Shown: piece after piece, positions 18,983 to 25,801 of the stretch
How positions within the stretch are numbered: the stretch's first letter is position 1
Layout of the letters: the number at the start of each line of letters is the position of its first letter
From: a virus
Length of the DNA: 61,278 bases
IMG/VR virus record: IMGVR_UViG_3300033153_009450
Coordinates: 1 to 61,278 of that record
Direction: 5' to 3' (one strand)
Notes under the pieces: generated by a model
Told to the model about the DNA's origin: nothing
Seen by the model: the letters and a program-made list of their open reading frames with translations, nothing else
Databases searched by the model: none
Made by a program: the position numbers and the translations under genes

Positions 18983-18997
18983 TGACGTATAATGTCA
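18983..18997. promoter_or_regulatory. Palindromic operator overlapping a TATAAT box
   Basis: TGACGTATAATGTCA has the dyad TGAC-N7-GTCA and contains a perfect TATAAT (18988-18993) on the plus strand. It lies between the divergent regulators and overlaps the first codon of the repressor frame. It is a good candidate for a repressor or Cro binding site. Confidence 0.5.
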
Positions 18998-19642
18998 AGT
19001 AAAAAAATACGTAAATCAGGAAAAAAATACTGCCCCCTTGGAAATCGCATCCAGAGGCTACAGGAAATCAACGACCTGAAAGCCTATGAACTGGCCCTTA
19101 TGCTCGGAATATCAACATCTTATCTGAGTGATATAAAATATGGGAGATCCGGGGTAACTGGATTTAAATTTTGGGATGCTATTAGGAGAAAAATGCCGGA
19201 ATGGGAGTATTATCTGAAAGGAAAGGCTAAAAATCCGGAAAAACGAACCAATCTAATACGCATATATGATGATGAAGGAAAACCTGTCAGCATCATGCCA
19301 AAGGCCCATGTAAAGTACAAAATCGAAACAGGCGGACCCGCCGGACAGGCGATAGAACCCGAGGGCGTCTATGAAATACCTTCAAAATGGTATCACGAAA
19401 CATTAGATAATATTCTCAACAGTGGCGACATGGAGATCATCCAGGCGGTTCAGTCTGTCCTTGTGGCATGTAAGGCTAAAACAATAGAGAAAGACCAGTT
19501 AGACTCCCGGATTCAAAATCTGGAACAAGTTATTATGGAACAAAAACCGCCGTCGGGGACCAAAGAACGCCGGAGCATCTGGAAGGACTTTAAAGAATTA
19601 TTACAAAGAGGAAATGAGCCTGGGATCGTCAAACACGATTAA
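18992..19642 (+). CDS. XRE-type repressor (CI-like), no peptidase domain
   Basis: A 216-residue protein with an N-terminal XRE helix-turn-helix (residues about 20-70: NRIQRLQEINDLKAYELALM, LGISTSYLSDIKYGRSG). The C-terminal half is a coiled coil (LDSRIQNLEQVIMEQK) and lacks the S24 Ser/Lys peptidase seen in lambda CI, so induction would not work by RecA-stimulated self-cleavage. No SD precedes the ATG at 18992, and a TATAAT overlaps it, so the true start or mode of translation is unclear. Likely maintains lysogeny. Confidence 0.65.
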   Translation: MSSKKIRKSGKKYCPLGNRIQRLQEINDLKAYELALMLGISTSYLSDIKYGRSGVTGFKFWDAIRRKMPEWEYYLKGKAKNPEKRTNLIRIYDDEGKPVSIMPKAHVKYKIETGGPAGQAIEPEGVYEIPSKWYHETLDNILNSGDMEIIQAVQSVLVACKAKTIEKDQLDSRIQNLEQVIMEQKPPSGTKERRSIWKDFKELLQRGNEPGIVKHD

Positions 19643-19826: not shown

Positions 19827-20921
19827 ATGCCCGTCTACCCAAAAAACGGCCTTTACTACTGTGTCTACTACCAGGGCAGCAAGCGCGTCTGGGAACCTTT
19901 CGGTCGCGGATCCGGCGCAAAAGAGGCCGCCGAGGCCAGAGACCTTGAAATAAAGCTCAAGAAAAAGACCGGTCAGATGCGACATGCCCCGGCCGGCCGA
20001 ACCTCTTTCATGGACCTGGCCCGCATGTATACCGATGCCCGAAAGAACGAACTGGCCGATAATACCATGGACGGGATCTTGAGAACCATCACCACCTATG
20101 CCGGACCAATCAGTAAAAAACCGATCAACCTGATCACAATGGACGACTGGCGCAAGATCGAGCAGAAAATGATCCGGAGGAAAATAAAGAACCGGACAAT
20201 CAATACCTACTTCGTATACCTTTCAAACATCCTGGACTGGGCCATGGGTGACGGCCTTATGGAAAATAACCCGTGGACCCGCCGGAAACGCCTCAAGGAG
20301 CGAAATAGATTTATGATAGACCTCTTCACCATCGACGAGTTTAATCGCATCCTGGCCGTATCTGCGCCTCATTTAGCATGGATTTTGGACACGGCCTATC
20401 ATACGGGTGTCCGGCCCGGGCCCACTGAACTATTTTGCATGAAATGGGAGGACGTGGATTGGCACCTAAAGCGAATCCGTATCTATTCGCAAAAGACCGA
20501 TACCTGGCGCTGGCAGTACCCGGACAAAAAATACTTCCGCCGCATGGTATCTAAACACAAACAAATGCAGAAAAAGTATCCCGGCTGCCCCTGGATTTGT
20601 TCGTACAACGGCAGGCAGATCACGAGTGTCAAAAGGGTATGGAAGGATGCTAAGGAAAAGGCAGGCATCAAGCGCCGGATCCGGCTCTACGATATTCGTC
20701 ACTTCTACATCACCTATGCCCTGGCGAACGGCGCAAACATAACCGAGTTAGCGGAAAGGGTAGGGCACGTGAACCCGCGCATGATTGTCAACGTCTATGC
20801 CCACCTTGCAAAGGACATCGCCCGCAACAAACCCTTCAAACTCCCCGAACTGAAAATCCCCGCCAAAACAGTAGATATAAACAGTAGACAAAGAAAGGCC
20901 GTCCCCGAAAAGACGGCCTAA
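19827..20921 (+). CDS. int: Tyrosine-family site-specific integrase
   Basis: A 364-residue integrase. The N-terminal arm-binding part is KNGLYYCVYYQGSKRVWEPF. A core-binding SAM-like domain follows (DNTMDGILRTITTYAGPISK). Catalytic residues are visible: HTGVRPGPTEL (Arg, near 195), LYDIRHFYI (Arg/His, near 290), VGHVNPRM (His, near 313) and VNVYAHL (nucleophilic Tyr, near 323). It recombines the adjacent attP with a tRNA-Ala gene in the host chromosome. The 3' end of the gene holds two ACAGTAGA words and a hairpin at the stop codon. Confidence 0.95.
   Translation: MPVYPKNGLYYCVYYQGSKRVWEPFGRGSGAKEAAEARDLEIKLKKKTGQMRHAPAGRTSFMDLARMYTDARKNELADNTMDGILRTITTYAGPISKKPINLITMDDWRKIEQKMIRRKIKNRTINTYFVYLSNILDWAMGDGLMENNPWTRRKRLKERNRFMIDLFTIDEFNRILAVSAPHLAWILDTAYHTGVRPGPTELFCMKWEDVDWHLKRIRIYSQKTDTWRWQYPDKKYFRRMVSKHKQMQKKYPGCPWICSYNGRQITSVKRVWKDAKEKAGIKRRIRLYDIRHFYITYALANGANITELAERVGHVNPRMIVNVYAHLAKDIARNKPFKLPELKIPAKTVDINSRQRKAVPEKTA
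20868..20888 (+). promoter_or_regulatory. Putative integrase arm sites, left pair
   Basis: ACAGTAGA occurs at 20868-20875 and 20881-20888 (13-bp period), inside the last codons of the integrase gene. The same word occurs twice on the other side of the attP core. Paired arms on both sides are typical of lambda-type attP. Confidence 0.55.
20896..20919 (+). terminator. Hairpin at the integrase stop codon
   Basis: AGGCCGTC (20896-20903) pairs with GACGGCCT (20912-20919) around CCCGAAAA, overlapping the TAA stop. The downstream T-run is imperfect (TTGATTTTATT). Confidence 0.5.
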
Positions 20922-20935
20922 CTACTTGATTTTAT

Positions 20936-20980
20936 TGGTGGAGCTGAGGGGGATCGAACCCCTGACCTCATGACTGCCAG
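20936..20980 (-). other. attP core: 3' half of tRNA-Ala(GGC)
   Basis: On the minus strand the sequence runs from an anticodon loop CTGGCAG through a TCATG stem, AGGTC, AGGGG-TTCGATC-CCCCT (T arm), CAGCTCC (acceptor) to ACCA. Each segment lines up with the 3' half of a tRNA-Ala with anticodon GGC. The five bases before the loop (CCTGT) do not pair with TCATG, so only the 3' half is present. Integration would use a host tRNA-Ala gene and rebuild its 3' end. Confidence 0.85.
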
Positions 20981-21073
20981 ACAGGGGACGTGGTGCGGGT
21001 ATGGGCTAAGTAGCTGATTTTATTACAGGCCAATTTTCTCAACTACCTATAATTAACTATAATTATGCCCACA

Positions 21074-21092
21074 ACAGTAGATGAACAGTAGA
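21074..21092 (+). promoter_or_regulatory. Putative integrase arm sites, right pair
   Basis: ACAGTAGA at 21074-21081 and 21085-21092 (11-bp period). With the left pair this gives four copies in 225 bp surrounding the core. Confidence 0.55.
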
Positions 21093-21986: not shown

Positions 21987-22451
21987 TTAAAGTTTATAAA
22001 ACCAATGGCCTCCCCATTTAAAAACAGGGATTTTTTCCTCTGCCCAATAGGGTAGTTTAAACTCATGTATCCTACCGGTAGTGCTCACTTCTGTCTTAAC
22101 CTCCACATGATAATGGTTAGCTCCGTTTGTTATATCGCCAACCCAATCATAAAGAACAAGAAAGGCCGCCGACCAGCACTCCCGCCACCATGCCTCAGAC
22201 CAGAAATGTTTGAAGTACCGATAAAGGAAATATGGGGCTATCTCCATAGTCCTGTTGATAGAATTCAGACAAGAAAATTGTTTAGCCTGTAGAATGACAG
22301 CCTTGTAATCATTAGACCATCTACGAGAATCATTAACCCTGTTACGCACAGCGCAGGCCACGGCCAGCTTGCCTACGAAGTCTTCTCCGGCTGCTTCACC
22401 TATTATCATACCGGTGAATAGGTCTTGTACGTCAAGTTCAGATAGTTTCAT
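21987..22451 (-). CDS. SleB/CwlJ-type cell-wall hydrolase (endolysin)
   Basis: A 154-residue Hydrolase_2 family protein. Signature segments are present in order: IIGEAAGEDFVGKLAVACAV RNRV (with the catalytic Glu), QFSCLN, GANHYH and LPYWAEEK. These enzymes cleave muramyl bonds in peptidoglycan. It has no signal peptide, so export needs a holin. It is the clearest lysis gene. A repeat-rich stretch precedes it. Confidence 0.85.
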   Translation of the reverse strand: MKLSELDVQDLFTGMIIGEAAGEDFVGKLAVACAVRNRVNDSRRWSNDYKAVILQAKQFSCLNSINRTMEIAPYFLYRYFKHFWSEAWWRECWSAAFLVLYDWVGDITNGANHYHVEVKTEVSTTGRIHEFKLPYWAEEKIPVFKWGGHWFYKL

Positions 22452-23900: not shown

Positions 23901-25652
23901 TTAAGCCGCCTTTTTCTCTCCTTCAGCCTTCAGCCTTATACCTTCAACCTGCTCCTCAATCCCCTCTATCCGCTCTATCCCGGCCTTGGCCTCCCTGTGT
24001 TCCGGCCAAAAGGTCAAGGCCGCTTCGTAACATGACTTCGCTAAAAGCAGTGATCCGCTGCGGAATAACACAGTCCCAAGGTTAAGCCACATATCCCACA
24101 GCCTGAGATCCCCATCGCAAAAAACCGCGCATCGAGCGGCGTGTTTATACGCCATCGGGAGATCGTTTTTATTAAGGTGATGCACCGTCACCAATGCGTT
24201 TACCCTGGTCCCTCCGCCATTACATCGCAAGGCCCGGTCCAGGTACCGGTAATCCTTGGATCTCATGTACCGGTCTAAGGAAAAATCCGTGATCAAATGC
24301 CGGACGCTGTATTTGTAAACAAAATATCCGAAAATGATATAACCCGCCAAACAGACGGCTGGTAAACCAGCCACACTGACGGCAGGCGAGCCCGCCAAAT
24401 AATAGCCGACTTGCCCGCCGTCTATCTGGCGGGTCAGGCTGCCGATCAGATACCAGAAAACAATATTTACATTGGTCACATGAAACGTATGGAAAAATAT
24501 TCCGTTAGCAAGAAGGGCCACAAGAGCGGAACCTTGCATTAGCGCAAGAGTATCCTGAGACTCTATCCCCATAAAAAGGGCAACGACAATAAAGCAAAGC
24601 AGCAGCATAAGTCCCGGTATGCCGTTATCCGTAATATGCTGTAAATAGTCGTTATGGGCCTTCTGCGGCCACGGATTCTGATAGTTCTCCTGTTTCAGGA
24701 ACTTACCGCCGGTCCGCATGTCTATATCTCGCTGTAAGAATGGCACGCGGGATTTTAACACATCGAACCCTAAACCGAAAAGAGGGGTCCTGATCACCTG
24801 TTCCACGGCGACCGTCCAATAATTCCACCGTTCATTGATTGAGTTTTTATCCAGGGCCCGGCGTCCTGATTTACCGCCTTTAATCAGGTAAAAGACAACG
24901 CCGCCGCATCCTATGAGCAAAAACGGGATCTCTGATACGGCATCGCCGTAGATAATTAATCCGCAGACAAGGCCAAAAAACGCCCCCCGGCACTCGGTCA
25001 ACCAGAGCGCATAAAGCACAGGGGCTAATGCCACGGTCCATATGAGCGATTGCGCATGAATCAGATAAAGGACAAAGAAAACATGCGGCACAAGGTAAGA
25101 AGCCAACATGTTAGGATTCCCGACAAGGCCCCTGGGCTGAAAGGGCGTCATTAATGTAGGTAAACCCTTCAGGGGTTCCCATTTAAACGTATGCTGGACA
25201 ATGGCGTATATGCTGTTTATTAGGGCCGCCGAAACTAATAAAATCAGACCGACCCCCTGCTCCTGTCCGCCATAGCCCGTTAGGGCGGCGGCGGAATCGG
25301 TGCCGGTAACAAGAAACAGGCCGAAACAAGCGACCATGGTGAACTTTACGAAATTCCGCAATGCAATGTCTTTTCTGGGCGACATCAGGGAGCACAGAAA
25401 CCACCACCCGAACAGTGCAAGGCTTAATGTCAGGATTTCCGGTTCGAAGTATATGGTCCGGCCTGCCCTCCATAGCCCTGAGCTTGTCGAAGAGGCGACG
25501 GAGGGGCCAAAGAACAACCAGTAACCCATTAACAGATATCCGGCCACAGCAAGCAGGGTGTTGCGGGGAGTCCTATACGGCCTGATACTATATCCCGGCA
25601 AAACAAACACGCACGCAAACGCTAAAATCACCATTGAAATTATTGAAAGCAT
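23901..25652 (-). CDS. O-antigen ligase/polymerase-like membrane protein with TPR tail
   Basis: Start at ATG 25652 (SD CAGGAGAGGTG), 583 residues. About ten hydrophobic segments and the conserved periplasmic NPWPQKAHNDYLQHITDNGI motif mark the Wzy/WaaL O-antigen ligase family. The C-terminus (YKHAARCAVFCDGDLRLWDM, LAKSCYEAALTFWPEHREAK) has TPR-like helices. Residues DSAAALTGYGGQEQG come from a family-D palindrome near 25265-25293, and the last residues (EGIRLKAEGEKKAA) from a repeat tract. Such phage genes alter surface polysaccharide and block superinfection. Confidence 0.75.
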   Translation of the reverse strand: MLSIISMVILAFACVFVLPGYSIRPYRTPRNTLLAVAGYLLMGYWLFFGPSVASSTSSGLWRAGRTIYFEPEILTLSLALFGWWFLCSLMSPRKDIALRNFVKFTMVACFGLFLVTGTDSAAALTGYGGQEQGVGLILLVSAALINSIYAIVQHTFKWEPLKGLPTLMTPFQPRGLVGNPNMLASYLVPHVFFVLYLIHAQSLIWTVALAPVLYALWLTECRGAFFGLVCGLIIYGDAVSEIPFLLIGCGGVVFYLIKGGKSGRRALDKNSINERWNYWTVAVEQVIRTPLFGLGFDVLKSRVPFLQRDIDMRTGGKFLKQENYQNPWPQKAHNDYLQHITDNGIPGLMLLLCFIVVALFMGIESQDTLALMQGSALVALLANGIFFHTFHVTNVNIVFWYLIGSLTRQIDGGQVGYYLAGSPAVSVAGLPAVCLAGYIIFGYFVYKYSVRHLITDFSLDRYMRSKDYRYLDRALRCNGGGTRVNALVTVHHLNKNDLPMAYKHAARCAVFCDGDLRLWDMWLNLGTVLFRSGSLLLAKSCYEAALTFWPEHREAKAGIERIEGIEEQVEGIRLKAEGEKKAA

Positions 25653-25801
25653 CACCTCTCCTGATAATCGCATTCATTATTGGAACAAGTTTCACTGCAA
25701 TCTGGATGGCTGACAATCAGCGCTCCGCACTTTGGGCACCTTCTTTCTGTAAGAATACTTTGGTCGTACAAATCATCACCATACAAATCATCTTCATCCA
25801 T
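25652..25801 (-). CDS. Zinc-ribbon small protein, 49 aa
   Basis: ATG 25801 follows AAGGAG with eight-base spacing. The peptide begins MDEDDLYGDDLYDQ and ends with CPKCGALIVS, CSETCSNNEC, a zinc ribbon. Its TGA overlaps the start of the ligase-like gene (TGATG), so the two are coupled. The SD lies in the edge of a family-B palindrome (25816-25844). Unknown function. Confidence 0.65.
   Translation of the reverse strand: MDEDDLYGDDLYDQSILTERRCPKCGALIVSHPDCSETCSNNECDYQER

Follow-up and report, generated by a model that had tools for sequence, protein, structure and literature searches.

The 61,278-nt stretch of viral DNA analysed here (the window) carries a phage attachment site, attP, which would let the phage splice itself into an alanine tRNA gene of its host without breaking that gene. 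Sites of this kind are well known, but the parts of this one recur at matching positions, exact to the base, in phage P22 and in many unrelated environmental phages. We are highly confident that it is the attP of a temperate tailed phage of the Desulfobacterota, in which a heterobivalent integrase would act through arm sites, DNA bends at two motifs termed H and H′, and strand exchange in a tRNA anticodon loop. This reading draws on the observed parts of the site with their positions and conservation, on the completeness of the phage genome, on tRNA matches in host genomes, and on integrated relatives; the binding of proteins to the arms, to the core and to H/H′ is predicted from the sequence. 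The features are compiled in Table 1, with relative positions counted from the centre of the anticodon loop (20977) on the tRNA strand.

Table 1. Features of the attP region and its surroundings in the window; related loci (L002 and others) are described in the text.
Feature	Positions	Strand	Remarks
CI-like repressor candidate	18992..19642	+	upstream of int; weak PHROG matches to repressors, E = 4e-4
Tyrosine integrase, 364 aa	19827..20921	+	Pfam PF00589 (E = 4e-14), PF22022, PF13102; PHROG integrase (E = 2e-47)
Arm site P′2, ACAGTAGA (TCTACTGT on the tRNA strand)	20868..20875	+	exact copy
Arm site P′1, ACAGTAGA	20881..20888	+	exact copy
Intrinsic-terminator-like hairpin	20896..20919	-	3′ of the tRNA end, between H′ and the P′ arm sites
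H′, IHF-type motif AATCAAGTAGTTA, +46 to +58	20919..20931	-	exact WATCARNNNNTTR; same offset in L002, L008, L136 and P22
attP core, 3′ 45 nt of tRNA-Ala(GGC), anticodon loop to CCA	20936..20980	-	42-mer exact in genome sequences (see text)
Anticodon loop CTGGCAG, putative 7-bp overlap (crossover)	20974..20980	-	centre 20977; identity to intact tRNAs begins here
H, IHF-type motif AATCAGCTACTTA, -42 to -30	21007..21019	-	exact WATCARNNNNTTR match; same offset in L002 and L135
Arm site P2, ACAGTAGA	21074..21081	+	exact copy
Arm site P1, ACAGTAGA	21085..21092	+	exact copy

The first and last 114 bases of the window are identical, and the window is the complete circular genome of a temperate phage, which encodes a terminase, head-tail proteins and a major head protein, and whose lysogeny-type region includes the tyrosine integrase gene; an excisionase gene was not recognised in it. 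The terminal repeat and the complete circular genome define the site as attP and not as a prophage junction. Truncated tRNAs next to integrases are also seen at the ends of prophages, and the fragment could on that account be taken for a decayed tRNA gene, or for the attL or attR of a prophage contig. This is very improbable: the genome is circular, the fragment has phage genes and arm sites to its left and right, and an identical 45-mer recurs in a family of viral contigs (the L002 family) whose flanks have otherwise diverged. About one quarter of the genome (26339-40834, minus strand) is occupied by the gene of a giant protein (4831 aa) that combines methyltransferase and SNF2/helicase domains, and Desulfobacteria prophages hold stretches that are 46-52% identical to it. 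The product of 23901-25673 (minus strand), 590 aa long and bearing an O-antigen ligase (Wzy_C) domain, possibly serves to change the host surface, and the cell wall hydrolase (Hydrolase_2) encoded near attP (21987-22451, minus strand) is likely a lysis gene product.

An earlier sequence-only reading had placed an attP in a tRNA-Ala(GGC) fragment next to the integrase, and this is supported by a 45-mer on the minus strand that runs from the loop CTGGCAG through CCA. Bacterial tRNA-Ala(GGC) genes had been predicted to contain this sequence, and they do: at least 118 genome stretches match its first 42 nt exactly (the 42-mer, without the final CCA), and 111 of the matches are complete tRNA-Ala(GGC) genes according to ARAGORN. 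As in the tRNA-restoring attPs of the anticodon-loop class, the phage-borne 3′ part of the tRNA, from the loop to the 3′ end, is identical to host genes. Identity to intact tRNAs begins at the anticodon loop both in the window and in the L002 family; 5′ of the loop the window sequence has no tRNA match, and no complete tRNA was detected in the window by ARAGORN. A DNA search of a phage collection with the attP region returned short similarities only, in and around the tRNA sequence. The anticodon loop is established as the 7-bp overlap of anticodon-class integrases (PMC8371274, PMC4383910), and by analogy with these enzymes (PMC8371274) the crossover would fall within the 7-bp loop of the window. 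A tyrosine integrase located at a tRNA gene also recalls tRNA-dependent lysogeny, in which the host tRNA is disrupted by the integrase and a tRNA from the phage takes over. In the published example (PMC10865867), a core of about 10 bp is accompanied by a phage tRNA, whereas here a shared core of 45 bp restores the tRNA and the phage has no complete tRNA gene, which makes such a lifestyle extremely improbable.

On both sides the core is flanked by repeated arm sites distinct from it, as is characteristic of lambda/P22-type sites. That ACAGTAGA occurs twice per side, at 20868, 20881, 21074 and 21085, was borne out: all four copies lie on the plus strand at attP and are the only exact copies on either strand of the whole 61 kb, while 0.65 copies in total are expected in the shuffled window and none of 100 shuffles reached four. 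Written as the 9-mer TCTACTGTT, the arm sites start at -115, -104, +89 and +102. Their description as symmetric is correct for position, with a midpoint 2.5-3.5 bp off the loop centre, but not for orientation, as the four sites are direct repeats in one orientation, with no mirror images among them.

Between the core and the arms lie H and H′, which fit the IHF consensus and whose positions are conserved among relatives. The 10-bp direct repeat reported at first, TGATTTTATT at 20927 and 21015, is indeed present, as part of an imperfect direct repeat of 22 nt with 18 identical positions, but is better read as the edge of these two IHF-type motifs (WATCARNNNNTTR). The consensus, together with footprints in other phages, points to H and H′ as candidate IHF sites. 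Each of 21 Desulfobacteria genomes contains at least three genes of the IHF/HU family, none of them above the curated himA cut-off, and the presence of IHF in the host bacteria is plausible. The hairpin, which has counterparts in the related loci L002, L221, L008 and L135, has the sequence of a putative terminator.

The integrase gene is convergent with the tRNA fragment, and attP follows directly on its 3′ side. Its product joins the PF00589 catalytic domain to a putative arm- and core-binding N-terminal part, the organisation of tyrosine recombinases, and R196, R291, H314 and Y324 are invariant among the three relatives aligned. No integrase of an isolated phage matched at 60% identity, the best-covering matches being about 24% identical, so that a close cultivated relative does not exist among them; the closest cellular integrase found, 54% identical, comes from a Desulfobacteria genome. 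In the proposed mechanism the N-terminal domain of the integrase would occupy the four arm sites and the catalytic domain the core, and an IHF-like host protein would bend the DNA at H (-36) and H′ (+52), thereby folding the arms back onto the core. Strands would be exchanged across the 7-bp anticodon loop of the host tRNA-Ala(GGC). The phage brings along the remainder of the tRNA through CCA; one junction would therefore hold a complete tRNA-Ala(GGC) gene, followed by phage DNA with H′, the phage-supplied terminator, the P′ arms and int, and the displaced 3′ fragment of the tRNA would remain at the other.

The layout recurs in related viral contigs. Six further contigs, the L002 family, contain the exact 45-mer and encode integrases 52-54% identical to that of the window. 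In a comparison of the window with L002, identity is 100% in the tRNA part, 69% in H/H′ and 21-54% elsewhere, and despite the drifted flanks all elements of L002 lie at the positions seen in the window. L221 (integrase 51% identical) has both H and H′, with arms at -116, -105, +90 and +102. In L008 (46%) the target is tRNA-Pro(GGG), and each side carries two TGTCTAAT arms, with H′ at +46 and a weak H; L135 (47%) uses tRNA-Ala(GGC), with the integrase on the opposite side from that of the window, the left motif at -42 and the right one at +44 on the opposite strand. The layout is preserved to the exact base across integrases that are 46-54% identical, across differing arm sequences and across the tRNAs Ala-GGC, Pro-GGG and Pro-UGG. 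A constant geometry with variable arm sequence and tRNA target would be expected of sites at which bound proteins are kept in register by bending of the DNA. About 2 kb from attP, the L002 family also has a reverse-transcriptase-like ORF with a YCDDF motif (L002:472-1482, plus strand), perhaps part of a diversity-generating retroelement.

The architecture by itself, namely the motif, a fixed gap, TTCRA-15-CCA, 5 nt and the motif again, was used to scan 2.9 million viral contigs, with no protein or specific tRNA as a query. It matched 38 contigs, compared with a single one in a control whose gap was 5 bp longer. Six of the 38 are the L002 family; of the 32 contigs that the scan added, 31 have a nearby integrase ORF, and nearly all show direct repeats on both sides, at about -120 to -95 and +85 to +105. 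Together with the window, the matches form about seven sequence clusters in which several tRNAs are used. Because a single tRNA-Met(CAT) cluster accounts for the majority, the independent cases number closer to seven than to 38. The proposal that a phage-supplied terminator is universal was rejected, as one was found in 9 of 38 attPs (3.0 expected by shuffling), concentrated in the integrase lineage of the window itself. We lean, at slightly better than even chances, towards a general grammar of tRNA attachment sites that is exact to the base: anticodon loop to CCA, a 4-bp gap, WATCARNNNNTTR, then arm sites repeated in tandem from about +90, and a partner of this motif at -42. Such a spacing rule was not described in the literature found by our search, which covered a minority of subscription journals. 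If the grammar is true, the arm sites and tRNA targets of integrases can be read from DNA alone, and several percent of the tRNA genes of Desulfobacteria would be live or fossil attL sites. The fixed geometry amounts to a simple pattern that finds integrase-bearing phages and host attachment sites, so that arm sites become predictable for many uncharacterised integrases.

In 78 Desulfobacteria genomes, WATCARNNNNTTR is located at CCA+3 to +5 of tRNA 3′ ends in 204 cases; the corresponding controls gave 5 matches for a scrambled motif and 26 for the motif 10 nt further out, nearly half of the 26 being tmRNA ends. With about 40-50 tRNA-like ends per genome, the 204 motif-bearing ends represent about 6% of the tRNA genes in these genomes. 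Their frequency, and the fact that in many of them the motif enters a terminator stem, would suit an origin of TGATTTTATT and the H motifs as leftovers of a host tRNA 3′ flank captured with its native terminator, in which case the likeness of the flanks would be transcriptional. Such an origin is unlikely in our judgement: a second copy of the motif is found on the anticodon side of attP, where no host tRNA flank exists, many motif-bearing flanks have no terminator stem, and P22 has the motif as well. Moreover, a tandem direct repeat at the position of the P′ arm is present in 18 of 57 motif-bearing flanks, compared with only 2 of the 103 tRNA flanks without the motif (p = 1e-7); these two exceptions each carry a near-motif. 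Motif-bearing tRNA flanks are probably attL sites, either live and occupied or fossil. The narrower suggestion that the post-CCA motif is a terminator stem only was rejected as sufficient, since versions that are not terminators and arm-like repeats exist. The motif follows many tRNA isotypes (genomes G001-G096, loci L148-L217), and the tmRNA genes of many Desulfobacteria have it 13-14 nt past CCA (for example, G069:C1:1719919-1719968).

The tRNA-Ala piece had been expected to identify the host, and it does so at the level of the phylum but not of the species. Among the 80 matches listed for the 42-mer, about 66 bear labels of the Deltaproteobacteria/Desulfobacterota type, the others including Nitrospinota, Myxococcota and Gemmatimonadota; as the same 42 nt are common to many Desulfobacterota and to some members of these and other groups, the piece is uninformative below the phylum. 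Relatives of the capsid protein (71, 60, 60 and 51% identity) were found in three Desulfobacteria genomes out of 379 genomes searched, in prophages whose terminase, head genes and giant protein are syntenic with the window. Taken together with the bacteria that hold the 42-mer and the integrase at 54% identity, these relatives make a host within the Desulfobacterota very likely.

At five loci (L016, L043, L087, L118 and L120) a bacterial tRNA-Ala(GGC) is cut at the anticodon loop or within a few bases of it, and these fragments are apparently the ends of other elements that use the same site. L043 and L048 are parts of one contig, in which a tRNA-Ala(GGC) fragment and an intact copy lie about 6 kb apart. 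A prophage of exactly this phage was not found at tRNA-Ala(GGC), and the relatives are integrated at tRNA-Pro and tRNA-SeC. In L136, the DNA directly past the CCA of a complete tRNA-Pro(UGG) contains H′ at +46, two arm repeats, at +91 and +103, and a broken integrase related to that of the window, the integration being seen on this one side only. In genome G042, an intact tRNA-SeC on contig C23 leads into prophage DNA whose arms read GCGCCCAA; on contig C7, a 3′ fragment of that tRNA, 68 nt long and starting two bases before the anticodon loop, lies alongside an integrase and the same arm type. Because the assembly contains two prophages that are about 90% identical, the contig joins at these tRNA-SeC junctions may be chimeric. 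Both prophages (G042:C7 and G042:C23, L257-L266) are related to the window, one lying beside tRNA-Ser(CGA) and the other at tRNA-SeC, and no matching tRNA fragment was found on the tRNA-Ser side of the C7 prophage. An uncultivated 61-kb phage is assigned here to the Desulfobacterota, the sulfate reducers and their kin, and a fully marked-up attP with its integrase is now at hand for this phylum, for which, to our knowledge, few integration tools are known.

The attP of the window belongs to the known lambda/P22-type, anticodon-loop class, and its layout is closest to that of P22. In this Salmonella phage (tRNA-Thr, NC_002371), attP likewise comprises the 3′ half of the tRNA from the anticodon loop to CCA, with the integrase adjacent, H′ (AATCAAATACTTA) is located at exactly +46 to +58, as in the window, and the right-arm spacing agrees too. 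Its arms consist of two direct sites at +91/+102 and two at -128/-117, with a GGGACR sequence unlike that of the window; further differences are the lack of an IHF consensus at -42 and an extra GGGACG at -63. No terminator was found between H′ and the arms, and the integrases are similar only locally (36% over 58 aa). For the attP of phage 186, the record (NC_001317) lists a truncated tRNA-Ile that has a 7-bp crossover at one of its ends. On each side there are DNase I footprints of IHF (about +41 to +67 and -31 to -60) as well as arm-type sites, with a terminator separating the H′ side from the arms, an arrangement that parallels the one predicted for the window. The 186 site differs by the unequal number of its arm sites (3+2 in the record), by their consensus YAYCGCCAYTY and by an H′ outside the strict consensus. 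Lambda has a heterobivalent integrase, arm sites and IHF bends flanking a 7-bp overlap (PMC4880445), like those proposed for the window, with the IHF consensus at -47 to -35 and +33 to +45. Its attP, however, is not in a tRNA, H2 and H′ are in opposite orientations, there is a third IHF site, H1, and the arm sites are unequal. The anticodon-centred class A tDNA islands of Islander, finally, have the crossover at the anticodon loop and a restored target (PMC4383910), and between them and the window there is no difference of principle: the window represents the same arrangement in a phage genome, with arms that can be read.
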